Origin: Neobacillus sp. OS1-2
GTDB lineage: Bacteria > Bacillota > Bacilli > Bacillales > Cytobacillaceae
Assembly: GCF_030915505.1 (NCBI RefSeq)
Contig: NZ_CP133265.1
Span: 3,686,001-3,750,000, forward strand
Direction of reading: 5' to 3'
Length of the DNA stretch: 64,000 nucleotides
The translations under genes and the position numbers were made by a program. Shown here in pieces: positions 2,332-25,689 of this stretch; the first letter of the stretch is position 1, and every line of letters begins with the position of its first letter. A model generated the notes under the pieces. The model was not told the origin of the DNA. It worked only from the letters and a program-made list of their open reading frames with translations, and searched no databases.

Positions 2332-2796
2332 ATGGAAGTTCGTCAATTTCGTCATGCAATGGGTAAATTTGCAACAGGGGTAACAGTCATCGCCACAGAG
2401 GTAGATGGAAATGTTCACGGAATGACGGCGAATGCTTTCATGTCCGTGTCACTTAGTCCACAACTTGTTGTAATCTCAATTGCAGAAAAAGCACAAATGT
2501 TGGAAAAGATTAAACAAAGCGGGACATTCTCCGTCAATATACTGTCGGCTGACCAAAAGGAGCTATCAATGGTCTTTGCGGGGCAGTTGAAGGATCACGA
2601 TGAAGTGGTGTTTGAACGTCTTCAGGGAGTCCCGGTATTACCTAATGCATTGACACAAATTTCCTGTGAGGTCACAGCTGCACATGTTGAGGGTGATCAT
2701 ACACTATTTATTGGGCGTGTTACAGACATTTGTGTGAATGATGCTGAACCACTAATTTATTATAGTGGAAAGTATCGTCGCTTGGTGAAGGAGTAA
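2332..2796 (+). CDS. Flavin reductase of a two-component monooxygenase (HsaB/HpaC-like), copy 1
   Basis: 154-residue flavin-reductase-domain protein. The RQFRHAMGKFATGVTVIAT opening and the HGMTANAFMSVSLSP motif are the flavin-binding signature of the HpaC/HsaB group, and a GDHTLFIGRV strand lies near the C-terminus. These enzymes use NAD(P)H to reduce FMN or FAD and release it to a partner oxygenase. Start chosen at ATG 2332, seven bases after AAAGGAGGT; an upstream in-frame ATG at 2308 overlaps the ribosome binding site. A closely similar second copy lies at 8808, and their likely partners are the acyl-CoA-dehydrogenase-fold oxygenases at 6534 and 15863. The gene is monocistronic, with a terminator at 2911. 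Confidence 0.9.
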   Translation: MEVRQFRHAMGKFATGVTVIATEVDGNVHGMTANAFMSVSLSPQLVVISIAEKAQMLEKIKQSGTFSVNILSADQKELSMVFAGQLKDHDEVVFERLQGVPVLPNALTQISCEVTAAHVEGDHTLFIGRVTDICVNDAEPLIYYSGKYRRLVKE

Positions 2797-2910
2797 TGGA
2801 TAAATAATCCAATATAGATAGTTTTATATGGTTTTTTCGTTTTGTTGTTTAAAAAAAGATTCAATAAGGAAGGATTCATAGTAAAATTTTACTTGAATAT
2901 GGATGTTAGA

Positions 2911-2940
2911 AAAATACGCTGATAGTTTCAGCGTATTTTT
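2911..2940 (+). terminator. Intrinsic terminator
   Basis: 12-bp stem AAAATACGCTGA / TCAGCGTATTTT with TAGTT loop and T tail, ending the first flavin reductase transcript. Confidence 0.9.
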
Positions 2941-2979
2941 CTGTGTTTTTGTGAAATAATAACCTATTTTTTATAAAAT

Positions 2980-3129
2980 AAAAAATATTTAGAATATATT
3001 GACAAGTAATTTTTGGCTATGTAGAATTACAGTTAGTGAATGAGGGCGCCTTTTTTATCACTTTCGACAGTGTATAAGGTATAAAATGTAAAATTGAAAT
3101 TTTAGTGTGAATAATACTAAAATTTTAGA
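2980..3129 (+). promoter_or_regulatory. SigA promoter and palindromic operator for the MFS gene
   Basis: TTGACA at 2999-3004 and TAGAAT at 3022-3027 are 17 bases apart. The 19 bases before the -35 (AAAAAATATTTAGAATATA) recur almost unchanged before the promoter at 4658. Downstream, AAATTTTAGT at 3097 and ACTAAAATTT at 3116 form a large inverted repeat, and 3116-3129 is itself nearly palindromic. The interval 2797-3253 holds nothing else I can recognise besides the terminator at 2911. Confidence 0.65.
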
Positions 3130-3253
3130 TGTTGCTTTTGATGGCCACAAAAGCTACAGGAACAGTTGCAACCTTTGTTCTATTTTGAAAGCGGATTCAT
3201 TTCCTATTTTCCATCAATGCTAAAGCAATATAAACAAAAGGGAGGTTTTTCTA

Positions 3254-4450
3254 TTGGCAGTAAAAACAATCAGTAGAAATTTCTTAAAGTTTTTGGTTGT
3301 CATTCTTGCTTTCCAGGATGTTGCTGCAGGGGTAGCAGGATCCATAATGGCAGACATCATAAAGGCATTTCCACAATATGACCCTACCATAGTGATGATG
3401 GTTGCAACCTTTCCTGGATTAATCCAAATTATCCCCGCATTATTTTATGGAAAACTTACTAAAATGTTCAAGAAGCGAACATTGTTATTTACGGGCTTAA
3501 GTCTTTTCATAATTGGTGGAGTACTTCCTACGTTTATTGACAGTCTGCCGCTTATTATTGTCATGCGTGGTATATTAGGGCTTGGTGTTGGGATAACAAT
3601 GCCATTGTCGGTGGACGTTATTACCGATTTCTTTGAAGGGAGAGAAAGAGATTTCTTAATCGGTTTTGGAACTTCAACCATCGCTTGTATTGGAGCAATA
3701 TTCTTTCAATTAGTAGGTGGAATTCTAGCAGATTCTTTTGGCTGGCATTATGGGTTCTTAACCTATTTATTCCCAATCTGGATTCTAGCAGTTACCATAC
3801 TTTATCTTCCTGAGCCTGAAAGGAAACAGCAGGCTGCGGTAAGTGACACCAAGGGACAGCATAAGATTAAACTACCGAAAGCAATCTATTGGGTATGCCT
3901 AGGACAGGTAATCTATTCCGGTTTGATTTTTGGCTATGTAACGAATATTTCGGTTGTAATCCAAGGGGATAAGTTAGGGAATGCTACCGAGGCTGGGCTT
4001 GCGATCTCAGTTTTCACCTTTGGAACACTGATTGCAGGGTTTTTATTTGGAAAAATAAAACACAGACTCCCCAATTATTACCTGCCGATTGCTGTTGCAG
4101 CAACGGGATTAGGAATGGCCGTTTGTTATTTATCACCAAGCTTAGTGTTGATTTTTGTGGGAAGCATTATTGGTGGTTTCGGAATGGGAATTGGCCTTCC
4201 TGGAGTATTCACTAAAGTTTCTGAACTATCTCCTGTTGGTGCATCTGCCGTGGGATTAGTGGTTGTGGGTCAAGGCCTTGGTGGGATCTTGGGACCTTTT
4301 GGATTTCAACTCGTCCAAACCATATTTAAGCAGGATATTGGTAGATTTCCATTGGCTGTAAGTACAGTTGGATTAATCATTTTGGCACTAATTTGGGCAC
4401 TGACAGTGCGGACATCTAAAAGAGATTTAGAGATAACTATAGGTCAATAA
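3254..4450 (+). CDS. MFS transporter, probable uptake of the island's substrate
   Basis: 398 residues with about twelve hydrophobic segments arranged as two six-helix halves separated by a charged loop (PEPERKQQ...). Features typical of MFS are the FYGKLTKMFKKR loop 2-3 motif near residue 70 and glycine-rich helices (GFGMGIGLPG). Translation starts at TTG 3254, eight bases after GGGAGG; no ATG is better placed. The gene has its own promoter, palindromic operator and terminator, and shares the operator type with the ring-cleavage hydrolase downstream, so it probably imports the aromatic or alicyclic substrate. Export cannot be excluded, and the substrate is unknown. Confidence 0.88.
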   Translation: MAVKTISRNFLKFLVVILAFQDVAAGVAGSIMADIIKAFPQYDPTIVMMVATFPGLIQIIPALFYGKLTKMFKKRTLLFTGLSLFIIGGVLPTFIDSLPLIIVMRGILGLGVGITMPLSVDVITDFFEGRERDFLIGFGTSTIACIGAIFFQLVGGILADSFGWHYGFLTYLFPIWILAVTILYLPEPERKQQAAVSDTKGQHKIKLPKAIYWVCLGQVIYSGLIFGYVTNISVVIQGDKLGNATEAGLAISVFTFGTLIAGFLFGKIKHRLPNYYLPIAVAATGLGMAVCYLSPSLVLIFVGSIIGGFGMGIGLPGVFTKVSELSPVGASAVGLVVVGQGLGGILGPFGFQLVQTIFKQDIGRFPLAVSTVGLIILALIWALTVRTSKRDLEITIGQ

Positions 4451-4458
4451 CAAAACCG

Positions 4459-4501
4459 AAGCTAAAATGATGAGATTGATTTTTCGTCATTTTAGCTTTT
4501 T
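4459..4501 (+). terminator. Intrinsic terminator after the MFS gene
   Basis: AAGCTAAAATGA / TCATTTTAGCTT stem with an 18-base loop and a short T run. Confidence 0.8.
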
Positions 4502-4633
4502 AGGATTTTTCTAAGACAAAATAAGAAAGCAAATATATTGACACGTCTATTAAAAATAGGAAAAGGGGAGAATGCGGGCGAAGTTCTTTGTGTACATCCT
4601 TTTTCTGGTTGCTGAATAGAACGAAAAATTCAC

Positions 4634-4768
4634 CGAATAAAAAATATTTAGAATTCATTGACAAAGGTGAATATCCAAAGGTAGAATTATAGTTAGGGGA
4701 TGTAAACGGTTTATATTGGTGTTTTCAGTAGTATTTGTAGAAAAATAGAAAAACTAAAATTTTAGTTT
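4634..4768 (+). promoter_or_regulatory. SigA promoter and perfect 18-bp palindrome for the hydrolase gene
   Basis: TTGACA at 4658-4663 and TAGAAT at 4682-4687 (18-base spacer) are preceded by the same AAAAATATTTAGAATT block as the promoter at 2999. The start region GTAGAATTA-AGTTAG is also shared. At 4751-4768, AAACTAAAATTTTAGTTT is a perfect palindrome, positioned like the one at 3116-3129 as a roadblock or repressor site. The interval 4451-4820 otherwise holds only the MFS terminator. Confidence 0.65.
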
Positions 4769-4820
4769 AAAGCAACCACGATATGTGAAAATTATTTTGA
4801 CAAAGTGAGGGTAAAAAAGG

Positions 4821-5666
4821 ATGACTGAAATTTTATCTAGAAAAATCCAAACTGGAAACTATCAAACATTTTTCCATGAGGGTGGTGAACCTTCATCTGA
4901 AACAATTATTTTTCTTCATGGCAGCGGACCTGGAGTAAGTGCAAAGTCAAATTGGCAGCATGTCCTGCCCCATTTCAAAGAAAAGTTTCATGTTGTGGCA
5001 CCTGATATTTTCGGATTTGCCAACACAGACCATCCTGAAACCTATCCAAACAATGGTGTTGAATGGATGAATGTGCGGATTAAACAGGTTCTAGCATTAA
5101 TGGATCAATTAGGAGTCGAAAAAGCCCATTTAGTCGGAAACTCCCTTGGGGGTGTTATTGCCTTGAATCTTCTTATGTATGCTCCCGAGAGATTCGATCG
5201 TGTGGTATTGATGGGGGCCGGCGGTGGTTTAACAGAACCAACTCCAGAACTGGCTAAATTAGCAAACTTCCATAAGGATCCAAATCCTGTTGCGTTTAAG
5301 AATCTTTTAAGCTGGTTTTTATTTGATCAAAACATTTTGGAAGATGAGCTTGAGGCAATTGTTGCCGAGCGATTGGAGCTCTTTTTAAAACCGGAAGTCC
5401 GCAGGTCTTATGAAGAAAATTTCTCAAAATCGCATTTATCAGATATGTTGGTTCCACCATCTGCACTAAAACAAATGGACCAGTCTATTTTATTGATTCA
5501 TGGACATCAAGACCGTTTCGTTCCTCTTCAAAGCAGTCTGTATGTAATGGATTACCTGCCAAATGCCCAACTCCATATCTTTAAGCGTTGCGGACATTGG
5601 GCCCAGGTAGAGCAAAAGGAAAGGTTCGTTAAACTGACATCCGATTTTTTCAACGGTGAACTTTGA
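4821..5666 (+). CDS. Alpha/beta hydrolase, meta-cleavage-product hydrolase (HsaD/BphD-like), copy 1
   Basis: 281 residues with a complete C-C bond hydrolase layout. The HGSGPGVS oxyanion-hole motif is at residues 33-40, the nucleophile Ser108 sits in GNSLGG, the acid is Asp231 in GHQDRFVP, and the base is His259 in CGHWAQVE. Family members cleave the dienone made by extradiol ring opening into a carboxylic acid and a 2-hydroxydienoate. Residues 135-215 form the variable lid that sets substrate range. A second copy with the same spacing of triad residues is at 12474. The gene is transcribed alone from its own promoter, ahead of the GntR regulator. Family assignment is strong; the exact substrate is unknown. 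Confidence 0.9.
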   Translation: MTEILSRKIQTGNYQTFFHEGGEPSSETIIFLHGSGPGVSAKSNWQHVLPHFKEKFHVVAPDIFGFANTDHPETYPNNGVEWMNVRIKQVLALMDQLGVEKAHLVGNSLGGVIALNLLMYAPERFDRVVLMGAGGGLTEPTPELAKLANFHKDPNPVAFKNLLSWFLFDQNILEDELEAIVAERLELFLKPEVRRSYEENFSKSHLSDMLVPPSALKQMDQSILLIHGHQDRFVPLQSSLYVMDYLPNAQLHIFKRCGHWAQVEQKERFVKLTSDFFNGEL

Positions 5667-5733
5667 AAGGTAAGGAAAATGAGGCAATTTTAGTAGGAAA
5701 TAAATGCACCGTTGATTCCCTATTAGTATGACC

Positions 5734-5780: not shown

Positions 5781-5822
5781 AGGGATAAAATAACAAGCCT
5801 AGAGAATCGAGGGTGTATAAAA

Positions 5823-6476
5823 ATGAAAATAGATAAGGCCTATCGTTATATTAAAAGACAAATTATTGAGGGCACATGGGAACCGGAAACAGCCATCAAT
5901 GTGAATGAACTTGCTGATATACTAAACATTAGTAGAACGCCCATCCACAAGGCGTTGTCGAAACTAGAACAAGAAGGATTTCTTACCATAATTCCTCAAG
6001 TAGGGGTATTTGTAAAAAGACCCGATCCAAATGAAGTAATCGAGCGCTTATTAGTTTGTGCAAATCTTGATGCATTGATGACGGAGCAGGCAGCCATACA
6101 TTTGACTAAGGAAGAATTCCGCTATATGGAAACAACTTTACTAAAAATGGATAATCCAGGATTATCCGCGGATGAATATTCCAGCTTGAATATTGATTTT
6201 CATAAGACAATTTATGTAGCTTCAAAGTTAACCTATACATTCAATTTGGCTAACCAGCTTTGGGATTACTTGAATTTTGTTGGGAATCCGGAAGATTTAT
6301 TCACCGATGAACGAAGGAAACAATCTCAAACAGAGCATTGGATTATTTTTTATAGTCTGATGGAAAAGGATAGTAAGATGGCAAAGAGGTTAATGGAAAA
6401 GCATATGCGTCGGGTGTCACAGTTGGTAGGGGAAAAATATCAGAGCATCGAAATAAATCAGCGAGTGTTTAACTAG
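5823..6476 (+). CDS. GntR-family transcriptional regulator, FCD (FadR-like) type
   Basis: 217 residues. The N-terminal winged helix (about 10-68) has the usual helix-turn-helix ELADILNISRTPIHKALSKL and the wing GFLTIIPQVGVFV. The rest is an all-helical FCD ligand-binding domain containing a conserved DFHKTIY stretch near residue 126. FCD regulators usually repress catabolic genes and release DNA when they bind a carboxylate substrate or intermediate. It sits between the first hydrolase and the first monooxygenase, in the same direction, and is the best candidate to bind the palindromes upstream of the MFS and hydrolase genes, which is inference. Start ATG 5823 follows GAGGGT. Confidence 0.9.
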   Translation: MKIDKAYRYIKRQIIEGTWEPETAINVNELADILNISRTPIHKALSKLEQEGFLTIIPQVGVFVKRPDPNEVIERLLVCANLDALMTEQAAIHLTKEEFRYMETTLLKMDNPGLSADEYSSLNIDFHKTIYVASKLTYTFNLANQLWDYLNFVGNPEDLFTDERRKQSQTEHWIIFYSLMEKDSKMAKRLMEKHMRRVSQLVGEKYQSIEINQRVFN

Positions 6477-6533
6477 TCATATTTTTTCACTAGATAAAAA
6501 GGCTTGGTCATTATTATAACAGGGGGTATCCTG

Positions 6534-7727
6534 ATGGAACAAAGTGTGCTGGATATAAAAAAAGAATTGGTAGATAAGGCGCGGTCACTGATCCCCAAAT
6601 TAAGGGAATATAGTGAAGAAATTGAGAAAACTAATACATTACCTAAAACAATTATTGAGGATTTACAAAGTGAAGGTACGTTAAAGGTCTTACGTCCCCA
6701 TTTATTTGGCGGCTATCAAACAAATATGCGGACCTATACAGAGGTTGTAACCGAGATTGCCCGGGGGAATGGATCTGCAGGGTGGTTTGTCGCCCTTAGT
6801 AATATTAGAGATTATATGATTTCCTATACTTTTGGGGAAAAAGCCTTAAATGAAATTTATCAACATGGAAAAGATGTTGTTTTAGCCGGAAACTTCAAGC
6901 CTATTAAGTGTGATATCAAGAAGGTGGAGGGTGGATATTATATAGAAGAAGCCCAGTGGCCGTTTGTTTCTGGCAGCCCGCATGCTGACTGGTGTTACTT
7001 TGGATTTCCAATCGAGGATGATAATGGCGGCGTAGAGATGGCGATTATGATTATTCCACGTGACGAGTTAGAGGTTCTTGATGATTGGTATGTTATGGGG
7101 TTAAAGGGCTCTGGCAGTAACAGCTGCAAAATTAAAAATGTCTTTGTCCCTGATCACCACGTGTCGTTGGACCGCTTAGCAAGCAAAGGACACTATCTAA
7201 TTGAGCCGTTAAAGGATGTTGCATTGTATCGTTCTTCCTTTGTACCTTCCCTAACATTGTCAATTGTGGCACCTGCATTAGGACTCGCTCAGGCGGCAAT
7301 GGATTTATATATGGAAAGGCTCCCAAAAGCAGGGATTGGAAATACCTTCTATAGAAAACAAAGCGAAGCGGCTGTTACACATCACCAGGTAGCACAGGCA
7401 CAGCTTAAAATTGACTCTGCAGAACTCCATCTATATCGAGCTGTAGACAAAATTGACAGCTATGCTGAACGTGGTGAAGTGATGGATAAAGCAGAAATTG
7501 TGAAAGTGAAGGCAGATTTTGGATATGTCAATCAATTATGTAAGGAAGCAATTGATCTTCTAGTAGCTGGAGTCGGCTCAATGTTCACCTACGAGACAAA
7601 TCCACTTCAAGTGGTGTATCGTGATTTTCTAACGATGCATTTACATGGTTTCATCACACCATCAAGTTTAATCGAAACCTATGGACGGGTGCTCTGTGGT
7701 CAGGAACCAAATACCTACTTTGTATAA
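6534..7727 (+). CDS. Acyl-CoA-dehydrogenase-fold flavin monooxygenase (HsaA-like), copy 1
   Basis: 397 residues with the acyl-CoA dehydrogenase fold: a helical N-terminal domain (about 1-115), a middle beta domain with WPFVSGSPHADW and a GLKGSGSNS loop (about 140-225), then a helical C-terminal domain. This combination is typical of HsaA and related reduced-flavin oxygenases (group D monooxygenases) that hydroxylate phenols ortho to an existing OH, rather than of true dehydrogenases. The reductant would come from the flavin reductases at 2332 or 8808. Start ATG 6534 has CAGGGGG just upstream; an in-frame ATG at 6504 lacks a site. It is followed by extradiol dioxygenase and flavin reductase, the order expected for hydroxylation then ring cleavage. 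Confidence 0.85.
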   Translation: MEQSVLDIKKELVDKARSLIPKLREYSEEIEKTNTLPKTIIEDLQSEGTLKVLRPHLFGGYQTNMRTYTEVVTEIARGNGSAGWFVALSNIRDYMISYTFGEKALNEIYQHGKDVVLAGNFKPIKCDIKKVEGGYYIEEAQWPFVSGSPHADWCYFGFPIEDDNGGVEMAIMIIPRDELEVLDDWYVMGLKGSGSNSCKIKNVFVPDHHVSLDRLASKGHYLIEPLKDVALYRSSFVPSLTLSIVAPALGLAQAAMDLYMERLPKAGIGNTFYRKQSEAAVTHHQVAQAQLKIDSAELHLYRAVDKIDSYAERGEVMDKAEIVKVKADFGYVNQLCKEAIDLLVAGVGSMFTYETNPLQVVYRDFLTMHLHGFITPSSLIETYGRVLCGQEPNTYFV

Positions 7728-7787: not shown

Positions 7788-8741
7788 ATGAGTTTACCAG
7801 AGATTGCAAAGTTAGGGCACGTTGCTTTAGTAACAACAGATCTTGAAAAATCCCTTTGGTTTTATAAAGAAGTGATTGGTCTAGAAGAAACAGAAGTTGT
7901 AGACGGTACCCATTATTTACGTGCTTGGGGGGATTTCGAACACCATACCCTTTCCGTAAAAGCTGGAGATAAACCGCATCTTGACCATATCGCTTGGCGG
8001 GCTAAACGGCCTGAAGATGTGGAAGGCTTTGCCAAACTTCTCGAAGAAGCCGGTACAGAAGTAACTTGGGTGGAAGCACAAGAAGAGGCAGGACAAGGAA
8101 GAGCGATTCGTTTTCAATTACCTAGTGAACATCGTTTCGAAATTTATTACGACATGGAGAAAACATTAGCGGATCCTTCCAGACGTTCCGTTTTAAAAAA
8201 TCAGACGTATAAATCATGGGCACGAGGTGTTTCACCGAGAAGAATAGATCATGTTAATCTCCTGACATCCTTAAAGGCAAATGTCATTTCTGATTATTTA
8301 CAGGAGAAATTAGGATTTAAAATGCGCGAATATGTTAAAGCACCTGACGAATCATTAGTTGGTGCATGGTTAAGCGTCACACCTTTAGTACATGATATTG
8401 CTGTCAGTCATGACCCATTCGCACCAACTACACACCAAATTCATCACATATCCTACTGGCTAGATAATGCCCAAGACCTTCTAAGAGCTGCAGATATTTT
8501 AAAAGAACATGGAATTTTCTTCAAAGGACCTGGTAAACACGGAATCTCACAAGCGATGTATATTTACGCGATTGATCCTGGAAGCGGTTTACGCGTAGAA
8601 TTATTCACAAATGGCTATTTAATCTTTGAACCGGATTGGGAACCAATCGAGTGGACTGTGGATGAAATGGATATCGGTTTCACCTTCTGGGGTGACCAAA
8701 TGGATACACTGCCGGAAAACAATCCAACCATTGAGGCATAA
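7788..8741 (+). CDS. Type I extradiol dioxygenase (VOC superfamily, HsaC/BphC-like), copy 1
   Basis: 317 residues forming two tandem vicinal-oxygen-chelate domains. The N-terminal domain (about 1-125) is structural. The C-terminal domain (about 150-280) carries the likely Fe(II) ligands His155 in RRIDHVN, His219 or His220 in QIHHISYW, and Glu271 in RVELF. These enzymes open catechol rings next to the diol using O2. A second copy at 13328 has the same length and the same ligand positions. It lies between the HsaA-like monooxygenase and the second flavin reductase, 60 bases from the former, so the three are probably co-transcribed. Ring cleavage is secure; the catechol identity is not. Confidence 0.9.
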   Translation: MSLPEIAKLGHVALVTTDLEKSLWFYKEVIGLEETEVVDGTHYLRAWGDFEHHTLSVKAGDKPHLDHIAWRAKRPEDVEGFAKLLEEAGTEVTWVEAQEEAGQGRAIRFQLPSEHRFEIYYDMEKTLADPSRRSVLKNQTYKSWARGVSPRRIDHVNLLTSLKANVISDYLQEKLGFKMREYVKAPDESLVGAWLSVTPLVHDIAVSHDPFAPTTHQIHHISYWLDNAQDLLRAADILKEHGIFFKGPGKHGISQAMYIYAIDPGSGLRVELFTNGYLIFEPDWEPIEWTVDEMDIGFTFWGDQMDTLPENNPTIEA

Positions 8742-8807: not shown

Positions 8808-9287
8808 ATGGATGACCGTCAATTTCGTACAGCAATGGGAAGATTCGCAACAGGTGTAACCGTTATTGCCACAGATGTTGAAGGGGATGTGCATGGCATG
8901 ACAGCTAATGCCTTCATGTCTGTTTCACTAAGTCCGAAACTTGTTGTAATCTCAATTGCAGAAAAAGCACAAATGTTGGAGAAAATTAAACGAAGCAATA
9001 CATTTTCGGTAAATATTCTAGCGGCTGACCAACAAGAACTATCGATGATTTTTGCGGGACAGATAAAAGAACCCCGTGAGGTGAAGTTTGACCGTCTTGA
9101 TGGAAAGCCCGTGTTGGCCGGCGCTGTCGCACAAATTGCCTGCGAGGTTTCAGCGGAGCATGTAGAAGGCGACCATACACTGTTTATCGGCAAAGTTACC
9201 GATATTCACCTAGAAGACATAGAACCATTAATTTTTTACAGTGGACGATACAGGGCACTGACGGAAGAGAATGCTGTTACGATTTAA
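8808..9287 (+). CDS. Flavin reductase (HsaB/HpaC-like), copy 2
   Basis: 159 residues, clearly a close paralogue of the protein at 2332: the RQFRTAMGRFATGVTVIATD opening, the HGMTANAFMSVSLSP flavin motif and the SIAEKAQMLEKIK helix are nearly identical. Differences concentrate in the loop after residue 90 and at the C-terminus. It should reduce free FMN or FAD with NAD(P)H for the monooxygenase encoded two genes upstream. Start ATG 8808 follows AAAGGGG. The unit 6534-9287 ends at a good terminator. The near identity of the two copies suggests a recent duplication, perhaps of a larger module. Confidence 0.92.
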   Translation: MDDRQFRTAMGRFATGVTVIATDVEGDVHGMTANAFMSVSLSPKLVVISIAEKAQMLEKIKRSNTFSVNILAADQQELSMIFAGQIKEPREVKFDRLDGKPVLAGAVAQIACEVSAEHVEGDHTLFIGKVTDIHLEDIEPLIFYSGRYRALTEENAVTI

Positions 9288-10294: not shown

Positions 10295-10408
10295 TCGATT
10301 TGGGAGAACAACTAAATTCCGTGGTCAGGAGTAAGGAAAAAAACGTGTCGATTTCTAATAGATAGATTATTTTCTATTGAAAATCCATAAAAGGAAATGG
10401 GTGAGAGT

Positions 10409-12262: not shown

Positions 12263-12302
12263 AAAAAAAACAATCCATTTACGGGGGGATTGTTTTTTTT
12301 TG
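12263..12302 (+). terminator. Intrinsic terminator after the regulator
   Basis: Stem AAAAACAATCC / GGATTGTTTTT with an eleven-base loop and a run of ten T. It separates the regulator from the second hydrolase; the 12303-12473 interval contains a short CTAC...GTAG dyad but no clear promoter. Confidence 0.85.
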
Positions 12303-12473
12303 GTTTGCTTCGGGGAAAACCAATAAAAACTACCGAAAAAGTAGTGCGATTCAAATGATTTTTTCTCTAGAAACAGAATAGTGAATTTTCTAAAATTAAG
12401 GAAAGGTAACGATTTTTCAGAAAGTAATTGGAAGGGCTTTCAACTTTTGAAAATAAGGAGGAACAAATCTGGT

Positions 12474-13313: not shown

Positions 13314-13327
13314 TGGAGGTTGGAAAT

Positions 13328-14281: not shown

Positions 14282-14289
14282 GTAAAGTG

Positions 14290-15838: not shown

Positions 15839-15862
15839 ATTAATGAAAAAGGGGTGCGAAAT

Positions 15863-18911: not shown

Positions 18912-20333
18912 TTGGGTAAAGAAGTAGATTATGACATTGTAGTAATTGGCTGCGGGGTAGCCGGAACCTCTGCTGCATTATCTGCAGCGGAGGCAGCAAA
19001 AAAAGCGGATAAAAACTTGAAAATTGCCATCTTAGAACGGGCTGATTATGACCATCGGGGCGGAAATTCAAGGTGGACCGCATCTTATATGCGGATGAAA
19101 AATCTCGATGAGGTTGCTGATAATTTTGTTGAAGATATGATGGCATTTTCAGACAACTTTTCGGATCGAGAGTACATAGAAACTCTCGCCAGGGATGCTG
19201 GACGCACCTTGAGATGGGTAGAGGAAAAGGGCGTTGAATTTGATTACCTACCGACGATGTTCTTAACAGCCGCAAGGCCGCGGTTATTGCCTGTAGGAGG
19301 AGGCCGTGCCATCGTTGACACCTTATCACGCCGGGCCGGTGGACTTGGTGTAGAGATTATTTACGAGGCAACTGCCTGGAAATTACTGGTTGACGATGAA
19401 GGGGCTGTGAATGGGCTTAATGTCCGTGTAAAAGGCGGAACGTCACTTCAATTAATGGTAGGCGCTGTTGTGCTGGCAAGCGGGGGCTTCCAAGGAAATC
19501 AAGAAATGATGGCACAATATGTTGGCCGGGATGCCCATAAAATTCCGACTGTTGCAGAGGGTGGACTATTTAACAAGGGTGAAGGCATTCGGATGGCAAT
19601 GGAGATTGGGGCCAAAACGGCAGGACAGTTTGATTCTTTCCATGCCGAACCGGTTGATCCAAGAAGCAAACGTGAAGAAGCAGCCGTTATGACATTCCCT
19701 TACTTTATTTTAGTCGATCAAAATGGCAAGCGCTTTGTAGATGAAGGAAAAACCACAATCGACGAGCAATACGAGGAGGTTGCCAGGCAGATCTTCTACG
19801 ATCTGCCTGGTCACGTGGCCTATATGATCGGTGATCAAAAGATGTATGAGATTCCAAATTATGAACGGGCAGTGGAGACGGATAAACCTGCTATTGTAGC
19901 TGAGAGGCTTGAAGAGCTGGCAGAAAAAATTGGGGTGCCTGTTGATCAACTGGCTTCGACAGTTAAGGAGTTTAATGCCGCAGTTCAGCCGGGTGAATTT
20001 CACTGGGATAAAAAGGACGGTAAACAAGCTGTTGGTATTATGCCGCCAAAATCAAACTGGGCGATCCCAATTGACAAGGCACCCTATATTGCCTATCCAA
20101 TTGTCTGCTCTAATGTATTTACAAATGGCGGGTTAGCAACAGATACAAACGGGCGGGTTTTATCAAATGATGATGATGCAATTCCGGGTTTATATGCGGT
20201 TGGGGAAACGGCTGGTCTTTATTACGGAAAATATCCTGGAGGAACGTCGGTGCTTAGAGGGCTAGTCTTCGGCCGGCGTGCTGGTGCCCATGCTGTATCA
20301 TATGTAACGGATTCAGCCAAGCTTGAGGTATAA
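18912..20333 (+). CDS. FAD-dependent oxidoreductase, fumarate-reductase/TcuA-like, copy 2
   Basis: 473 residues, FAD_binding_2 family, with VVIGCGVAGTSAALSAA at residues about 9-25. A GGNSRWTASYMRM segment aligns with the substrate-side loop of TcuA-like proteins, NGKRFVDEG lies mid-protein, and LYAVGETAG...YPGGTSVLRG binds FAD at the C-terminus. No heme, Fe-S or membrane segment is present, so it should be a soluble single-subunit flavoprotein. Start is TTG 18912, nine bases after AAGGAGGA. It is the second of three such proteins; all three are distinct in sequence, so they are unlikely to be redundant. It follows the lyase gene by 33 bases in one transcription unit. Confidence 0.85.
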   Translation: MGKEVDYDIVVIGCGVAGTSAALSAAEAAKKADKNLKIAILERADYDHRGGNSRWTASYMRMKNLDEVADNFVEDMMAFSDNFSDREYIETLARDAGRTLRWVEEKGVEFDYLPTMFLTAARPRLLPVGGGRAIVDTLSRRAGGLGVEIIYEATAWKLLVDDEGAVNGLNVRVKGGTSLQLMVGAVVLASGGFQGNQEMMAQYVGRDAHKIPTVAEGGLFNKGEGIRMAMEIGAKTAGQFDSFHAEPVDPRSKREEAAVMTFPYFILVDQNGKRFVDEGKTTIDEQYEEVARQIFYDLPGHVAYMIGDQKMYEIPNYERAVETDKPAIVAERLEELAEKIGVPVDQLASTVKEFNAAVQPGEFHWDKKDGKQAVGIMPPKSNWAIPIDKAPYIAYPIVCSNVFTNGGLATDTNGRVLSNDDDAIPGLYAVGETAGLYYGKYPGGTSVLRGLVFGRRAGAHAVSYVTDSAKLEV

Positions 20334-20369
20334 GCAGTAATTATTGTGTTTAAGGAAGGGGATGTCTTT

Positions 20370-21098
20370 TTGGAATTAAAAAATAAGGTAGCCTTTGTCA
20401 CAGGAGGCGGTAGAGGAATCGGCAGGGAGACCTGCATTCTGTTGGCGAAGCAAGGCGCTAAAGTTGCTGTTTTTTCCAATAATCAGTCCGAAGGTGAAGA
20501 AACAGCGAGATTTATCATTACCGAACTGGGTGGGGAAGCCGTCTCCGTTGCAGGAGATGTTCGCAATGAAGAAGATGTTACGAGTGCAGTCCAAGGGGCA
20601 CAAAAATTGGGCTCATCAGTCGATATCTTAATAAACAATGCCGGTGTGATGCTTCTGAAACCATTCCATGAAACAACGGTAGAAGAATGGGATTTTGTTC
20701 AAGATGTAAATGTACGAGGCGGATTTTTATGTGCCCGGGCAGTTGTACCGCAAATGAGAGAAAAACAAGATGGAGTAATTATCAATCTTTCATCGATTTG
20801 GGGAACAAAGGGCGGCCCGGACAGGAGCGCCTACATTGCCTCAAAATATGCAGTCATTGGTTTTTCAAAAGCATTAGGTGAAGAATTGAAGCCGTACAAG
20901 ATTAGAGTGAATGCTGTCTGTCCGGGGCCTGTCGATACGAAAATGATGGAGGAGCTTGCACCCGATGTAAATAAAGAAAATTGGCTGCGGCCAATTGATC
21001 TTGCAAATGTAATCGTTGATTTATGTCTGCCGAAGAGTAAAGCCGTAACTGCTACAGCCATTGAAGCATTTGGAAATGGCAGGCCAGTAAATCTATAA
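20370..21098 (+). CDS. Short-chain dehydrogenase/reductase
   Basis: 242 residues of the classical SDR family, with the cofactor motif TGGGRGIGRE at 12-21, the NNAG strand motif, and the catalytic Ser ... Tyr-x-x-x-Lys in YIASKYAVIG. CPGPVDTKMM closes the substrate side. It would oxidise or reduce an alcohol/ketone of a pathway intermediate with NAD(P). I start at TTG 20370, which has GGAAGGGG eight bases upstream; a GTG at 20346 in the same frame lacks a site. The spacing to neighbours (36 and 23 bases) supports co-transcription. The substrate is unknown. Confidence 0.88.
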   Translation: MELKNKVAFVTGGGRGIGRETCILLAKQGAKVAVFSNNQSEGEETARFIITELGGEAVSVAGDVRNEEDVTSAVQGAQKLGSSVDILINNAGVMLLKPFHETTVEEWDFVQDVNVRGGFLCARAVVPQMREKQDGVIINLSSIWGTKGGPDRSAYIASKYAVIGFSKALGEELKPYKIRVNAVCPGPVDTKMMEELAPDVNKENWLRPIDLANVIVDLCLPKSKAVTATAIEAFGNGRPVNL

Positions 21099-21121: not shown

Positions 21122-21559
21122 ATGGAAAAATTAATTGCAGCAATCGAATCAAAAAATATTAGTCTTGCTTTAGCACAAAAAATGCTAGAAGCAGCTTTAG
21201 TAAAGGGGAACGAACTTGGGATGCCATTTAGCATTGCCATTGTGGATAGGGTTGGAAATATTAAAGCATTTGCGGCAATGGATGGGGCACCAGTGTTAAG
21301 TTTAGAAATTGCCCAAAATAAAGCATTTTCGGCTGCAACCTATAATCGAGCAACACATGAATGGTATGACAGACTTAAGGATGATCCGCCGTTATTACAT
21401 GGAATTGTCCATACACCTAGATTAGTCATTTTTGGCGGTGGTTACCCCATTAAAGTGGATAATGAACTAATTGGCGGTGTAGGAGTAAGCGGTGGACACT
21501 ATACTCATGACATGCAGGTATGTGAGGCGGCATTAGAAGTGTTAAATACAATTGAGTAA
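21122..21559 (+). CDS. GlcG/HbpS-family protein
   Basis: 145 residues, one GlcG/HbpS (Haem_degrading) domain. SIAIVDRVGNIKAFAAMDGA forms the first strands and GGVGVSGG closes the core. The family includes HbpS, a heme-binding sensor, and GlcG, an uncharacterised protein of the glycolate locus; homologues are often found next to catabolic flavoenzymes, with no settled function. It lies 23 bases after the SDR gene and 15 before the third flavoprotein, so it is part of the operon, perhaps as a cofactor-binding helper or a stabiliser of a flavoprotein. Start ATG 21122 follows AAAGAGG. Confidence 0.82.
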   Translation: MEKLIAAIESKNISLALAQKMLEAALVKGNELGMPFSIAIVDRVGNIKAFAAMDGAPVLSLEIAQNKAFSAATYNRATHEWYDRLKDDPPLLHGIVHTPRLVIFGGGYPIKVDNELIGGVGVSGGHYTHDMQVCEAALEVLNTIE

Positions 21560-21574: not shown

Positions 21575-22951
21575 ATGGAAACCTATGATTTAGTCATTTT
21601 GGGCGGCGGCTTAGCAGGGATGTGTGCTGCGGTAGAGGCTGGTGAGATGGGGGCACATGTACTCCTACTTGAAAAACAGGATGAACTTGGCGGCAGCACT
21701 GTCCTGAGTTCTGGGTATATGGCATTTGCTGGGACGGATATGCAAGATGCAGCAGGCATTAGTGATTCCACTGAATCACTTTTGGCCGACATGATTGAAG
21801 TTGGTGGGGGCGTGAATGTTCCCTCGCTGGTCCATACCTACGGCCTCCATCAGCTTGAGACCTATTCATGGCTAGTGGAACATGGGATTGAGTTCCGTGC
21901 ACTTGAAGCAGTAAGTGGTCATAGTGTTCCACGAGGGCACATTATTGATCCGCACCAAGCCATTCAGTCTCTGTATCGCAAGGTAAAAGACCTTCCAAAC
22001 GCAACAATTCGTTTTTGTGCCTCGGCAAAACGGTTATTTAAGAATAAGGACGGCAGAATCAATCAAATTGTATATGATTTTGATGGTGTGGAACATATGG
22101 TTGTTGCTGTTAAAGGGGTTATTCTCGCTTCCGGTGGTTTTGCGAAAAGTGAGGAGTTATTGCAGCAGTTTGCTCCTCGGCTAAGTGGCGCATTACGGAT
22201 TGGCGGCGCGGGAAATAAGGGGGACGGTTTACAAATGGCTTGGGAGCACGGTGCATGGGTACAAGACCTGCCATACTTAAATGGAACATATGGTTTCCAT
22301 CCGTCTGCAACTGGCTCGGTTAAATCCCAGGGACTAGCTTTTTACAAGGGCGGCATAATGGTGAATCAGCTAGGAAAGCGGTTTGTAAACGAATCGATTT
22401 CTTATAAGTTATTAGGTAAAGCGGCATTCGAGCAGCCAGACCAAATCAGTTATCAGGTTTGGGATCAAACGGTCATGGATAAAAGTGTGTTTGACGACCC
22501 GCTTTATGATTTTGAATTACTTCGACGCCGTCGCCTACTATATGTGGTGGACACATTAGCAGAATTGGCAGAGTGCATCGATGTTCCATTGGAAGTTCTC
22601 GAAGATACCATTTCAAGATACAACCAGGGGATTCAAAACGGTGAGGATCCAGACTTCGGACGTAAGACATTAACACATCATTACGGTATGCCGACTCCCA
22701 TTGAAAATCCTCCATTTTATGCATTTGAATCGACAGTCGCCATGCTGGCAACGTATGCAGGGCTTGCTGTTAATGCTGCGGGGCAGGTCGTCAATCCATA
22801 TGCGGAGCCAATTCCTGGCTTGTATGCAGCTGGCGAAATTACTGGCGGATTTCATGGCGCCGGTTACATGACGGGTAGTTCACTAGGGAAAGCTGCCGTG
22901 TTTGGCCGAGTTGCGGTTCAGGCTGCGTTAGCTGAAGTATCGGTAAAATAG
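21575..22951 (+). CDS. FAD-dependent oxidoreductase, fumarate-reductase/TcuA-like, copy 3
   Basis: 458 residues, FAD_binding_2 family, with VILGGGLAGMCAAVEA at residues 6-21, ELGGSTVLSSGYMAFAG near 40-55, GKRFVNES mid-protein, and LYAAGEITGGFHGAGYMTGSSLG near the C-terminus. It diverges from copies 1 and 2 at the C-terminal motif (GAGYMTGSS instead of YPGG), closer to general fumarate-reductase-like flavoproteins that contain a 3-oxo-steroid-dehydrogenase-like fold. No signal peptide is present, so it is cytoplasmic. It starts at ATG 21575 after GAGGTG and is separated from GlcG by 15 bases. Substrate and direction are unknown. Confidence 0.85.
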   Translation: METYDLVILGGGLAGMCAAVEAGEMGAHVLLLEKQDELGGSTVLSSGYMAFAGTDMQDAAGISDSTESLLADMIEVGGGVNVPSLVHTYGLHQLETYSWLVEHGIEFRALEAVSGHSVPRGHIIDPHQAIQSLYRKVKDLPNATIRFCASAKRLFKNKDGRINQIVYDFDGVEHMVVAVKGVILASGGFAKSEELLQQFAPRLSGALRIGGAGNKGDGLQMAWEHGAWVQDLPYLNGTYGFHPSATGSVKSQGLAFYKGGIMVNQLGKRFVNESISYKLLGKAAFEQPDQISYQVWDQTVMDKSVFDDPLYDFELLRRRRLLYVVDTLAELAECIDVPLEVLEDTISRYNQGIQNGEDPDFGRKTLTHHYGMPTPIENPPFYAFESTVAMLATYAGLAVNAAGQVVNPYAEPIPGLYAAGEITGGFHGAGYMTGSSLGKAAVFGRVAVQAALAEVSVK

Positions 22952-22999
22952 AATGAAACTTTGGTGTAGTTTTCACGTTAAAAAAGGAGGGTTCATGAA

Positions 23000-23860
23000 A
23001 TGAAAATTTGGCATCAAAGTCTTACCACGATAGATCTGGTACCGCAATATCGAGATGCAATCATCAATCACGTAAACCGGATTGCCCGTCCGGACGTAGA
23101 GGTTGTTTTGCATGGAATGACGGAAGAAACCTATCCTACCCATTATCCGGGAATCTTTATCACCCATGCCTACTTACAAAACTTGCATCGCGAACAGTTT
23201 ATCCGCGCTGCACTTACGGCTGAAGCGGCAGGCTACGATGCGATGTTCATTGCAACGATTCCAGATGTGGGTCTTTTAGAGGCACGAACATTGGTGGATA
23301 TCCCTGTGGTAGGGTATGGGCAAGCTTCTTTCCATATAGCCTCCATGCTAGGCGATTGTATCGGTGTCGTTAACTTCCTAGCACCACTCGCAGATGAACT
23401 CAGGCAAAACGCCGCCCGCTATGGGCTTGGTGGGAAATTGGGACCGATTGTTCAGACAGAAGTAGGATTTGATGCTGTCCTCGCTGGTTTTAATGATCCA
23501 GAACCTGTTATTGCATCATTTATGAAGGCTGCTGAAAAGGCCATCTCTGAAGGTGCTGATGTCATTGTCCCTGGTGAAGGTCCGATGAATGTATTCTTAG
23601 CCACTCATGGCATTTCGAGGATTGGAGACGTGCCGATTGTCGATTCGTTTGGAGCGGGAATTAAAGTGTGTGAATCGCTGGCAGATTTGCGGAGAGTGTC
23701 CGGGGTATATATGACCAGACGAGGCTATTTCAATGCAAAACCGCCTGCTGATGCAGTTGCAAGATTAAGAGAAATGTATGGGCTGGAGCCAACCCCAAAT
23801 CCCAAAAATGATCGTGGGCTGTCTTCGAAGGCCGTGGAAAAGTCATTTTCAGATTCCTAA
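23000..23860 (+). CDS. Asp/Glu/hydantoin-racemase-fold protein lacking both catalytic cysteines
   Basis: 286 residues with the two-domain Asp/Glu racemase fold. The strand that normally carries the first catalytic cysteine reads MFIATIPDVGL (Thr86 where hydantoin racemases have Cys), and the second reads VIVPGEGPMN (Glu193 where GC is expected). With both cysteines absent it cannot work as a two-base racemase; a decarboxylase, isomerase or binding role is possible. The protein also has an unusual, basic C-terminal tail after residue 265. It lies between the third flavoprotein and EtfB, 48 and 42 bases away, in the same direction. Start ATG 23000 follows AAAAAGGAGGG. Confidence 0.8.
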   Translation: MKIWHQSLTTIDLVPQYRDAIINHVNRIARPDVEVVLHGMTEETYPTHYPGIFITHAYLQNLHREQFIRAALTAEAAGYDAMFIATIPDVGLLEARTLVDIPVVGYGQASFHIASMLGDCIGVVNFLAPLADELRQNAARYGLGGKLGPIVQTEVGFDAVLAGFNDPEPVIASFMKAAEKAISEGADVIVPGEGPMNVFLATHGISRIGDVPIVDSFGAGIKVCESLADLRRVSGVYMTRRGYFNAKPPADAVARLREMYGLEPTPNPKNDRGLSSKAVEKSFSDS

Positions 23861-23902
23861 TTTTATAGAAAAAGTGTAACTAAAGAAAGAGGTGAACGAG
23901 AA

Positions 23903-24697
23903 TTGCATATCGTTGTCTGCCTAAAATATGTCCTCGATCCGGAGATAACACCACGGTATTTTCAAATTAATCCCGAAACCAATCGTCCTGATCATAGCGA
24001 TTCCGACATGGTGCTAGATTCTTTCGCTGAGAATGCGCTTGAACTCGCCATTCAACTGCGGGATAAAACACCGGGTGCCTCGGTAACAGCTCTTTGTCTT
24101 GGGGATGAGGATTCAGAGGAAGTACTCCGTCGGGCCCTTGCTTTTACCGCAAATGCTGCCGTCCGTGTTTGGGAGGAGGACTGGGAAGAGCTTGATGGTC
24201 TACCAGTTGGACACATCCTGGCTCAAGCAATCAAGACACTTGGTGGTGCGAAGCTAGTATTGACCGGGTACCAAGCTAGTGATATTGAGGAAGGTCTGGT
24301 CGGCCCTGTTATGGCAGAAGAGCTTGGGGTGCCATGTGTAACAAGGGTTTCCGACCTAGAATTGGTTGGGGATCAGATAAAAGCATCAAGTGAGGCTGAG
24401 GGAGGGTACACAGTAGTAAGCGTGCCTTCACCTGCGGTCCTTACCATCATAAGTGCAGAGACAAATGTTCCCCGCCTCCCGAAGGTCAAGGATATTAGGC
24501 TTGCCAGAAGTAAGAAGATTACACTTTTTGAAAGAGATGATCTCCATTTAGATAGTGAACGGTGTCAACCAGGGGCCAAACTGGTGAAAGCCTATATTTC
24601 AAATAGGGAAGTGAACTGCGAAGTATTGCCCGGCAATGATGGTGCTGAACTTGCAGGCGAGTTGGCTGACAGGCTCGTGGCACTGAAGATTTTATAG
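23903..24697 (+). CDS. etfB: Electron transfer flavoprotein, beta subunit
   Basis: 264 residues. It opens with HIVVCLKYVLDPE and contains the conserved DxxAxExAL-type segment (DSFAENALELAIQL) and the AMP-binding stretch LVLTGYQASDIEEGLVGPVMAEELGVP near residues 115-145. EtfB pairs with EtfA to carry electrons from dehydrogenases to the membrane quinone pool through ETF-quinone oxidoreductase, which is not present in the window. The start is TTG 23903, seven bases after AAAGAGGTGA. It and etfA close the catabolic operon. Being separate from any fatty acid oxidation genes suggests a dedicated ETF for the pathway's flavoproteins. Confidence 0.9.
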   Translation: MHIVVCLKYVLDPEITPRYFQINPETNRPDHSDSDMVLDSFAENALELAIQLRDKTPGASVTALCLGDEDSEEVLRRALAFTANAAVRVWEEDWEELDGLPVGHILAQAIKTLGGAKLVLTGYQASDIEEGLVGPVMAEELGVPCVTRVSDLELVGDQIKASSEAEGGYTVVSVPSPAVLTIISAETNVPRLPKVKDIRLARSKKITLFERDDLHLDSERCQPGAKLVKAYISNREVNCEVLPGNDGAELAGELADRLVALKIL

Positions 24698-24708
24698 GAG
24701 GTGTCGAC

Positions 24709-25689
24709 ATGTCCAATATTCTTGTTTTTACACATCAACAGGGAGAATCCTTGACACCTGGAGGTAGAGAGGCGGTTGTCTTTAGTTCCCGATTAGCAAG
24801 TTCCACGGGAGGTGAGGTCCGTGCTGTATTATTAGGCTCCAAGTCTGAACAAAGTGCTAAGGAGGCAATTGCATGCGGGGCGAATATAGCATACACCGTT
24901 GATAAACTGTTGCTCGCAGAATACGATGTAGAATTATATGTGAATTGTCTCTGCCATGTGTTCGAACAAACGGATGCCGATACGATGATAGTTTCGTTTG
25001 ACCGGATGGGGAAGGATCTGGTTGGCAGGCTGGCAGCCCGCCTAAACGCATCTGCTATTACAGAGGTAGTCGATTTCAAAACTGATTGCGAAAAACTAAC
25101 ATGGATTCGCCCTATTTATGGTGATAAAGCGTTTGGTGAATATCAGACAACCCGTTCAAAGGTAGTAGTAGGGCTACGTCAAAAGAGTCAAAATGTGACT
25201 AAATTCACTGAGCATCATGGTGGGGAAATCATTCCACTTGAATATGCTGCAACGGAGGAGGAAATGGTGATCAAGCTTGTTGTGAAAATCCAGGCTGCAC
25301 TTTCAGATGTCCGTCTTGAAGATGCTCGGATTATTGTTTCCGGAGGACGTGGTCTTGGTGGTCCTGAAGGATTTAGCGAACTTCAAACTCTAGCAAGTCT
25401 GCTTGGTGGTACTGTTGGGGCATCACGTGCGGCCTGTGACGCGGGATGGGTTCCTGCAAACCTCCAGGTAGGGCAAACTGGGGCCGTTGTCGCACCAGAC
25501 CTCTATATTGCCGTCGGTATTTCCGGGGCAAGTCAGCATCTGGCGGGCATCACAAATGCAAAGACCGTTGTTGCTATTAATACTGATCCGGAGTCTCCAA
25601 TTTTTAAACGTGCTAATATCGGGGTAGTTGCTGACTGCAGGACAGTAATACCAGCATTAACGGAAAAACTAAGAAAGGTGCTTCTTTAG
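24709..25689 (+). CDS. etfA: Electron transfer flavoprotein, alpha subunit
   Basis: 326 residues. The C-terminal half is the canonical EtfA FAD domain, with SGGRGLGGPEGF near residue 210, GASRAACDAGWVP near 240, VGQTGAVVAPDLYIAVGISGASQH near 255-280, and the INTDPESPIF tail. The N-terminal half is the alpha-type nucleotide-binding-like domain. It starts at ATG 24709, eleven bases after the etfB stop, behind TAGGAGGTG. It is the last gene of the island; its terminator hairpin follows and has been entered by a group II intron right after the first part of its T tract. FAD supply may depend on the RibF-like gene upstream. Confidence 0.92.
   Translation: MSNILVFTHQQGESLTPGGREAVVFSSRLASSTGGEVRAVLLGSKSEQSAKEAIACGANIAYTVDKLLLAEYDVELYVNCLCHVFEQTDADTMIVSFDRMGKDLVGRLAARLNASAITEVVDFKTDCEKLTWIRPIYGDKAFGEYQTTRSKVVVGLRQKSQNVTKFTEHHGGEIIPLEYAATEEEMVIKLVVKIQAALSDVRLEDARIIVSGGRGLGGPEGFSELQTLASLLGGTVGASRAACDAGWVPANLQVGQTGAVVAPDLYIAVGISGASQHLAGITNAKTVVAINTDPESPIFKRANIGVVADCRTVIPALTEKLRKVLL

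Follow-up and report, generated by a model that had tools for sequence, protein, structure and literature searches.

A set of 22 intact open reading frames (ORFs), all on the plus strand, occupies positions 2308-25689 of the stretch of DNA analysed here, the window, which comprises 64,000 nucleotides of Neobacillus sp. OS1-2 (NZ_CP133265.1, positions 3,686,001 to 3,750,000; genome of 4.73 Mb, one contig). The ORFs form a real, conserved and uncharacterised gene cluster with signs of joint regulation. Judged from protein families and gene context, the cluster may encode a catabolic route for phenolics with a carboxylated side chain that is conserved in Bacillales, a reading of reactions and substrate that we regard as plausible though somewhat short of probable.

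Gene content and layout

An earlier note on this DNA had described a flavin-centred ring-cleavage island with two sets of ring-opening genes. Each gene it named was recovered as an intact plus-strand ORF in its expected place and matched to its family with Pfam and NCBIfam models (Table 1), and these family matches supported the presence of two branches. The description as two complete Hsa-like sets was correct in that both gene sets are present, but they are not equal copies, and operon 2 has no reductase of its own. Identities between branch 1 and branch 2 were 75% for the reductases, 71% for the extradiol dioxygenases, 41% for the hydrolases and 26% for the oxygenases. The divergence of hydrolases and oxygenases indicates that the branches are not a plain tandem duplication; the simple duplication of one HsaABCD set was rejected on the 26% identity of the oxygenases.

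Operon 2 runs from HsaD2 to EtfA in the order HsaD2-C23O2-Tcu1-HsaA2-RibF-PrpB-Tcu2-SDR-GlcG-Tcu3-Race-EtfBA, with intergenic gaps of -1 to 60 bp. Its RibF-like protein contains no riboflavin kinase domain according to Pfam. In agreement with the earlier note, none of the 22 ORFs encodes a coenzyme A (CoA) ligase, a thiolase or a Rieske oxygenase. No flavin mononucleotide (FMN) riboswitch or other known RNA element was detected in the cluster at the gathering threshold; the three RNA-model matches in positions 1-45000, two group II intron models and one tRNA, lie outside of it.

Table 1. Features of the cluster in window coordinates, with the matches on which their assignment is based (FAD, flavin adenine dinucleotide; PEP, phosphoenolpyruvate; HTH, helix-turn-helix)
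Feature	Position	Strand	Evidence
FRd1, flavin reductase	2308..2796	+	PF01613 139 bits; in-frame ATG at 2332 is the likelier start
Terminator-like hairpin 3' of FRd1	2907-2943		
Putative promoter box AATATTTAGAAT-NN-ATTGACA, shared, 5' of MFS	2984..3004	+	0 mismatches; TAGAATTACAG downstream
MFS transporter	3254..4450	+	PF07690 120 bits
Putative promoter box, copy 2, 5' of HsaD1	4643..4663	+	0 mismatches
HsaD1, BphD/HsaD-like C-C hydrolase	4821..5666	+	NF045632 195 bits (cut-off 400); best PDB match 1c4x, 249 bits
GntR/FCD regulator	5823..6476	+	PF00392, PF07729
HsaA1, ACAD-fold flavin-dependent oxygenase	6504..7727	+	NF045629 199 bits (cut-off 450)
C23O1, type I extradiol dioxygenase	7788..8741	+	TIGR03211 298 bits (cut-off 320)
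FRd2, flavin reductase	8808..9287	+	PF01613 138 bits
FAH-family protein, accessory	9374..10294	+	PF01557 175 bits
MobR-like regulator (N-terminal half)	10397..12262	+	XylR_N, V4R, GGDEF_2, PucR-type HTH; NF041906 88 bits (cut-off 999)
Terminator-like inverted repeat, regulator/operon 2 junction	12263..12300	+	14-nt perfect arms; second arm ends in a T run
HsaD2, meta-cleavage-product hydrolase	12381..13313	+	NF045632 173 bits (cut-off 400)
C23O2, type I extradiol dioxygenase	13313..14281	+	TIGR03211 300 bits (cut-off 320)
Tcu1, TcuA-like FAD dehydrogenase/desaturase	14342..15838	+	NF006130 571 bits (cut-off 369); TIGR02485 270 bits (cut-off 372.55)
HsaA2, diverged HsaA-like oxygenase	15854..17035	+	NF045629 158 bits (cut-off 450)
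RibF-like FAD synthetase domain	17089..17958	+	PF06574 only
PrpB-like, PEP mutase/isocitrate lyase fold	18000..18878	+	TIGR02317 297 bits (cut-off 354.4)
Tcu2, TcuA/KstD-like flavoprotein	18912..20333	+	NF006130 344 bits (cut-off 369)
SDR oxidoreductase	20346..21098	+	PF00106 203 bits
GlcG/HbpS-like protein	21122..21559	+	PF03928 125 bits
Tcu3, flavocytochrome-c-type FAD protein	21575..22951	+	TIGR01813 275 bits (cut-off 285)
Race, Asp/Glu/hydantoin-racemase fold	23000..23860	+	PF01177 61 bits
EtfB	23903..24697	+	PF01012 104 bits
EtfA	24709..25689	+	PF00766 117 bits, PF01012 88.5 bits

Conservation, promoter box and flanks

The gene set recurs in relatives. Twenty loci of 40 kb, selected on an extradiol gene of the cluster, were compared; 18 were from the same genus and two from other genera. 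The former represent 18 of the 20 Race-positive genomes of the genus besides the source, G007 and G038 being left out. ORFs of at least 90 amino acids served as genes after overlapping ORFs had been dropped, and a gene was scored as present at ≥40% identity over ≥60% of the shorter sequence. For flank genes, the threshold was an identity above 45%. MFS, HsaD1, GntR, HsaA1, C23O1, MobR, HsaD2, Tcu1, RibF, PrpB, GlcG and Tcu3 were present in all 20 loci, Tcu2 and SDR in 19, FRd2 and C23O2 in 18, and FAH in seven. For Race, EtfB and EtfA the count was 17, because the stretches of G010, G013 and G048 stop just before these genes. The HsaA2 position holds an orthologue of at least 90% identity in nine loci and an HsaA3-type protein in the other eleven. 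Apart from insertions, losses and replacements, the gene order was unchanged in 19 of the 20 loci, the rearranged one being G064. The locus of G020 is interrupted by extra FAH, SDR, hydrolase, HsaA-like, SMP-30 and TRAP transporter genes, and its Tcu2 with the adjoining SDR is missing.

Race was detected in 23 of 150 relatives' genomes including the source, 21 of the genus and two of other genera. An alignment of Race yielded a further view on 36 named loci, all from Bacillales (10 Neobacillus, 8 Bacillus sp., 18 other genera), and the gene order was more variable in those outside the genus. In a sample of 398 Bacillota genomes, no genome besides the source contained Race at an E-value of 1e-30, which indicates that the cluster is patchily distributed and uncommon.

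The upstream regions of MFS and HsaD1 share the sequence AATATTTAGAAT-NN-ATTGACA, followed at a promoter-like distance by TAGAATTAYAG; the two candidate promoters span 2984-3035 and 4643-4695. The whole genome contains only these two perfect copies of the box and five more at three mismatches; the reversed pattern gave one match. With the window included, a copy was located upstream of MFS in all 21 loci (0-3 mismatches) and upstream of HsaD1 in 20 of them (0-2 mismatches), with none found at HsaD1 in G064. Other matches with three mismatches within the 40-kb loci were confined to G065 (two) and G053 (one). Operon 2 is preceded by the terminator-like repeat and has no copy of the box in front of it. 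Between positions 2100 and 13400, promoter-like sites (31 versus 33.6 in shuffled sequences) and terminator-like sites (8 versus 8.4) were not in excess, so that the argument for joint regulation is carried by the conserved box.

In 13 of the 18 loci from the genus, the cluster comes after ricA-cotE, and the GC content of the cluster (41.7%) is close to that of positions 30001-64000 (39.6%). Both observations disfavour a recent insertion of the island. A group II intron with a reverse transcriptase is located at 25934-27937, directly 3' of etfA. In Bacillus subtilis, cotE and mutS are neighbours; in the window, cotE (700-1275) and a mutS gene identified by eye (44442-47057) are separated by 43 kb. 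Positions 38022-43096 encode a DabB-like antiporter subunit, DabA (856 bits), MpsC and a small ORF without Pfam match, probably an inorganic-carbon or membrane-potential system.

Ring opening and lower pathway

The oxygenases, reductases and hydrolases had been likened to those of the HsaABCD secosteroid pathway, a membership that was rejected on the equivalog scores, all of which were under cut-off (given for branch 1/branch 2, cut-off in brackets): HsaA 199/158 (450), HsaB 117/106 (230), HsaC 45/35 (450) and HsaD 195/173 (400). Among PDB entries, HsaA1 matched XiaF with 143 bits and 3-HSA hydroxylase with 134 bits. The extradiol enzymes, which the earlier note had called HsaC-like, turned out to resemble catechol 2,3-dioxygenase instead, with 298 and 300 bits on TIGR03211 (cut-off 320). 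They were the only two C23O-type genes found in the source genome.

The gene families for extradiol dioxygenase and C-C hydrolase of Mhp-type meta cleavage are each represented twice, and the ring-opening half of the cluster looks, by family matches, like known meta-cleavage pathways. A hint to its substrate came from two relatives, G064 and G065, in which a LigB-type enzyme, encoded between HsaD2 and Tcu1, replaces C23O2. The protein of G065 has a LigB domain and found its best model in 3-carboxyethylcatechol 2,3-dioxygenase (185 bits, cut-off 291); that of G064 was scored as its homologue. This replacement is the best clue that the substrate of branch 2 might be a carboxyalkyl-substituted catechol.

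The cluster had been regarded as devoid of a standard lower pathway. This holds for the island, for the three genes are absent from the 22 ORFs, but fails for the genome, which has candidates elsewhere. A 4-hydroxy-2-oxovalerate aldolase (TIGR03217, 528 bits; DmpG domain) and an acylating acetaldehyde dehydrogenase (TIGR03215, 454 bits; AcetDehyd domain), both over cut-off, adjoin each other at 2600599-2602506, 1.1 Mb from the cluster. The hydratase is the least certain of the three: a hydratase-like gene with DmpE as best model (TIGR03220, 324 bits) remains below the cut-off of 408.8. Its product is 54% identical to a protein encoded within the cluster of N. niacini, which itself scored 301 bits on TIGR03220. 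The gene lies beside a decarboxylase-like gene with DmpH as best model, likewise below cut-off, at genome positions 3995467-3997005, within the stretch 3995419-3997026; the pair lies downstream of genes recognised by eye as flagellar-type.

Among the 20 loci, the cluster itself includes a hydratase-like gene in 13, a dehydrogenase in one and an aldolase in two. N. niacini MER531 has the three genes together within its cluster, and all three are also found inside the cluster at some other loci. At least one of the three genes was present within the flanks of nine of the 36 named loci. The aldolase was over cut-off in all 23 Race-positive genomes versus 49 of 127 Race-negative ones (Fisher's test, one-sided p = 5e-9, phylogeny ignored), and within the genus alone in 21 of 21 versus 24 of 39 (p = 5e-4, uncorrected for shared ancestry).

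A C-C lyase had been thought to finish the pathway in place of hydratase, aldolase and dehydrogenase. This claim was not upheld: aldolase and dehydrogenase are encoded in the genome over cut-off and the hydratase-like protein below it, and some relatives have all three within the cluster. Since the enzymes are available in the genome, their absence from the island is no evidence for another route, and the lyase of isocitrate lyase fold was rejected as a required substitute. With the missing lower pathway corrected, the main reason given for an alternative route is gone.

Flavoprotein module and proposed route

Tcu1 passed the TcuA model NF006130, while Tcu2 and Tcu3 (200 bits) did not; Tcu1 failed TIGR02485, and no TcuB or TcuC was recognised among the 22 ORFs. 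Close homologues of four module genes and of the PrpD of the relatives were found on plasmid 3 of Variovorax sp. PBL-E5 (NZ_LR594673.1), with identities of 51% (Tcu1), 48% (Tcu2), 47% (Tcu3), 43% (Race) and 44% (PrpD). They are accompanied by Etf genes, by another Race-like gene (35%) and by an SDR that is only generically similar, and within 40.8 kb no ring-cleavage gene is annotated. On a plasmid of Rhizobium gallicum, in an unannotated record, Tcu3-like and Race-like matches stand side by side.

Of the 20 plasmid records with close Tcu1 homologues, seven contexts chosen by us were examined. Tricarboxylate-transporter genes were near the Tcu1 homologue in five of them (Variovorax, Shinella, Deinococcus, Paracoccus and Hydrogenophaga), those of Paracoccus and Hydrogenophaga holding PrpD, PrpF or isopropylmalate dehydratase genes as well. 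The Bradyrhizobium context had Etf genes without such a transporter, and that of Ruegeria had neither. A ring-cleavage dioxygenase was annotated in none of the seven stretches. The transporter contexts and the Variovorax set without annotated ring-cleavage gene favour a chemistry of side-chain acids. Within about 13 kb of a Tcu3-like gene on a Citricoccus plasmid lie SDR and TRAP genes and members of the citrate-lyase and isocitrate lyase/PEP mutase families, and the other plasmid contexts of Tcu2 and Tcu3 were mixed, with aldehyde dehydrogenase and CoA lyases or transferases among the neighbours. An Fe-S oxidoreductase encoded beside the Etf genes in relatives has a homologue in the source genome (64% over 137 amino acids of a piece of 160). 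Tcu1-3, Etf, the PrpB-like lyase and Race constitute a flavoprotein module that is separable from the ring-opening half.

The occurrence of this set elsewhere without annotated ring-cleavage genes would also be expected if the cluster served the ordinary degradation of 3-hydroxyphenylpropionate or a similar phenolic acid and an independent organic-acid operon adjoined it by chance; in addition, Mhp-type meta cleavage uses branches and a lower pathway of these kinds. We consider such a coincidence unlikely. HsaD2 to EtfBA follow each other with gaps of no more than 60 bp, and extradiol genes accompany Race at most Bacillales loci: the fetched flanks contained one at 28 of the 36 named loci. Eight showed none there, of which six correspond to genomes with extradiol genes in the 40-kb loci and two are at contig ends.

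The earlier note had assigned the flavoproteins to the aromatisation or desaturation of an alicyclic or polycyclic compound. In such a route, SDR, Tcu1-3 and Race would turn an alicyclic ketone into a phenol by oxidation, desaturation and isomerisation, to be opened by the HsaA-extradiol-HsaD branches. Ketosteroid dehydrogenases and 4-oxocyclohexanecarboxylate desaturases provide a precedent, and Tcu1 is placed between C23O2 and HsaA2 within one tight operon. For Tcu2, the PDB ranking listed the fumarate reductase 1qo8 (120 bits), urocanate reductase (114) and then ketosteroid dehydrogenase (95.5), ahead of all other fumarate reductases (83-91). Tcu1 and Tcu3, however, were closer by score to fumarate reductases than to ketosteroid dehydrogenases, and none of the three passed the 3-oxosteroid 1-dehydrogenase model (NF005882; 143, 130 and 156 bits for Tcu1-3, cut-off 788). 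A YPGG motif, which we liken to the Tyr-Pro-Gly of KstD, is found in Tcu1 and Tcu2 at the place of a fumarate reductase Arg; it does not decide the question, since the TcuA homologue of Variovorax has YPGG as well. The aromatisation furthermore leaves PrpB and PrpD without a role and is at odds with the plasmid contexts, both the frequent tricarboxylate-transporter genes and the Variovorax set of Tcu1-3, Race and PrpD without an annotated ring-cleavage partner. We do not favour it and regard it as rather improbable.

Reductive work of the flavin enzymes on unsaturated side chains, in the manner of vinylphenol or caffeate reductases, appears very unlikely. Tcu1-3 all matched the vinyl phenol reductase model VprA, and urocanate reductase and fumarate reductases were among the best PDB matches, but the VprA scores of 140, 162 and 189 bits were far under the cut-off of 600. 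An oxygen-dependent pathway would presumably need no such electron sink, and EtfBA beside TcuA-like proteins would better suit a dehydrogenation.

The PrpB-like protein did not reach the cut-off of the methylisocitrate lyase PrpB equivalog; its best PDB match was the petal death protein (222 bits). It keeps the sequence KKCGH, aligned to KKCGH/KRCGH of the two best PDB matches; K-(K/R)-C-G-H is the catalytic Cys motif of C-C lyases of the PEP mutase/isocitrate lyase group. Race had been called a Cys-less protein. It does contain C120 and C224, but the two catalytic positions are indeed free of Cys and occupied by T86 and E193, which align with the two Cys of the Klebsiella allantoin racemase 3qvj and were invariant across 13 sequences. 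An AlphaFold2 model from the 13-row alignment had a mean predicted local distance difference test (pLDDT) score of 79.5, and Foldseek found an allantoin racemase as best match, with hydantoin racemases and the fungal OpaE also among the nearest folds. According to the excerpts of PMC12661438 that were available, the dyad of the Klebsiella racemase is Cys79/Cys184, and the E. coli racemase EcL-DER carries an unbalanced dyad Thr83/Cys197. The Thr at the first catalytic position of Race therefore has a precedent in a protein of the same fold; at the second position EcL-DER has Cys and Race has Glu, for which no report was found in the excerpts of the literature searched. Race-like genes of lower identity occur in Streptomyces (30%) and Variovorax RA8 (34%), in the company of arylmalonate decarboxylase and haem genes or of CoA-ester genes and tricarboxylate-transporter binding proteins.

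In the proposed catabolism of phenolics with a carboxylated side chain, MFS would import the substrate, and the HsaA-type oxygenases with the flavin reductases would hydroxylate the phenol to a catechol. Its ring would be opened by the extradiol dioxygenases and the product split by the HsaD-type hydrolases into 2-hydroxypenta-2,4-dienoate and a side-chain acid, the two branches serving two related rings or congeners. The dienoate could be degraded in the usual way by hydratase, aldolase and acetaldehyde dehydrogenase, for which the genome has candidate genes outside the cluster. The side-chain acid, a di- or polycarboxylate, would be desaturated by Tcu1-3 without CoA esters, with EtfBA accepting the electrons, then rearranged by Race and SDR, hydrated (by PrpD, where present) and finally cleaved by the PrpB-like lyase. 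In six of the 20 loci, sulfatase and maturase genes lie between MFS and HsaD1. The sulfatase belongs to PF00884, with arylsulfatase as best equivalog (143 bits, cut-off 481), and is compatible with sulfated phenols as substrates without proving them; in the source genome, a search without positive control found no homologue.

Several observations weigh against this route. In all three Tcu proteins, other residues stand where HMMER aligned His504 and Arg544 of fumarate reductase. At Arg402, Tcu2 and Tcu3 have other residues, and Tcu1 is gapped, with an Arg in a five-residue insert close by. In fumarate reductase, His504 and Arg544 form the carboxylate clamp and Arg402 is the general acid. PrpD was present in just six of the 20 loci, and a search without positive control found no PrpD-like gene in the source genome, which leaves the hydration step there without a candidate. 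The lower-pathway genes of the source genome neither adjoin the cluster nor have a copy of the box, and many genomes that lack the cluster have the aldolase too (the 49 of 127 mentioned above). The plasmid gene tables are incomplete, and tricarboxylate-transporter binding proteins are so numerous in Comamonadaceae that the contexts of Variovorax and Hydrogenophaga lose weight. Homologues of Tcu2/Tcu3 lie 7 kb from an extradiol gene in Rhodococcus qingshengii and 5 kb from a 2,5-dihydroxypyridine dioxygenase in V. boronicumulans. Finally, the box was not found at up to two mismatches in the 36 named loci, few of whose flanks reach MFS; L088, L089 and L096, from outside Neobacillus, contain MFS and yet show no box, which may thus be limited to part of the range of the cluster.

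No characterised Bacillus pathway with this gene set was found in the searches made of open-licence PMC papers, in line with what had been supposed. Of the known systems, HsaABCD of actinobacteria shares the two-component ACAD-fold hydroxylase, the extradiol enzyme and the C-C hydrolase with the cluster; it differs in that the cluster scores far under the Hsa cut-offs, its extradiols are nearer to catechol 2,3-dioxygenase, and no KshA-type Rieske gene is among the 22 ORFs. The Mhp pathway for 3-(3-hydroxyphenyl)propionate is similar in its ring-opening logic, its C-C hydrolase, the MhpE- and MhpF-type and hydratase-like genes in the genome and the MhpB-like enzyme of G064 and G065. In contrast to Mhp, the cluster has a two-component hydroxylase, type I extradiols, two branches and a flavoprotein module, with the lower-pathway genes outside.

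The ipp cluster of Rhodococcus sp. D-6 is described in the available part of its report as induced, with a RibBA-like flavin-biosynthesis gene and hydroquinone cleavage (PMC12442392). An HsaA-like oxygenase with reductase, a flavin-biosynthesis gene and an FAH gene are common to both clusters, whereas the excerpted gene table of ipp lists no TcuA-like, Etf, PrpB or racemase-fold genes (PMC12442392). With the tricarballylate operon tcuABC of Salmonella, as far as the available text describes it (PMC10468695), the cluster shares a TcuA-family FAD dehydrogenase, Tcu1 passing NF006130; unlike that operon, it has three paralogues and EtfBA, no recognised TcuB or TcuC, and a Tcu1 that fails TIGR02485. 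The system of Variovorax PBL-E5 plasmid 3 resembles the module: Tcu1, Tcu2, Tcu3 and Race each have a close homologue there, beside Etf genes and a PrpD, which six of the 20 relatives also have. It differs by the lack of an annotated ring-cleavage gene within 40.8 kb.

A more specific version of the side-chain chemistry is speculative and in our view quite improbable: the module might be a CoA-free counterpart of β-oxidation for polycarboxylates left by ring cleavage, with an enterolignan-type substrate. It would proceed by TcuA-like desaturation into EtfBA, isomerisation by the Thr/Glu racemase-fold protein, hydration and PrpB-like retro-aldol cleavage. Enterolignan-type compounds consist of two 3-hydroxybenzyl rings on a four-carbon core, and their choice is a conjecture from chemical structure alone. 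If both rings were opened in the manner of Mhp, a butane-tetracarboxylate-like acid might result and be converted by the module to glyoxylate and tricarballylate. A single substrate of this type would explain both branches, the sulfatase of the relatives and the polycarboxylate module.

The shared box offers a cheap handle toward the inducer and hence the substrate, and the Thr/Glu pair in place of the catalytic cysteines of Race poses a concrete question of enzymology. If the catabolism of phenolics with carboxylated side chains is indeed encoded here, an aromatic pathway in which hydroxylase and extradiol enzyme occur in two branches would be defined for Bacillales, and a flavoprotein set that occurs across phyla (Tcu1-3, Race and Etf), with no known joint role, would be tied to a metabolism.

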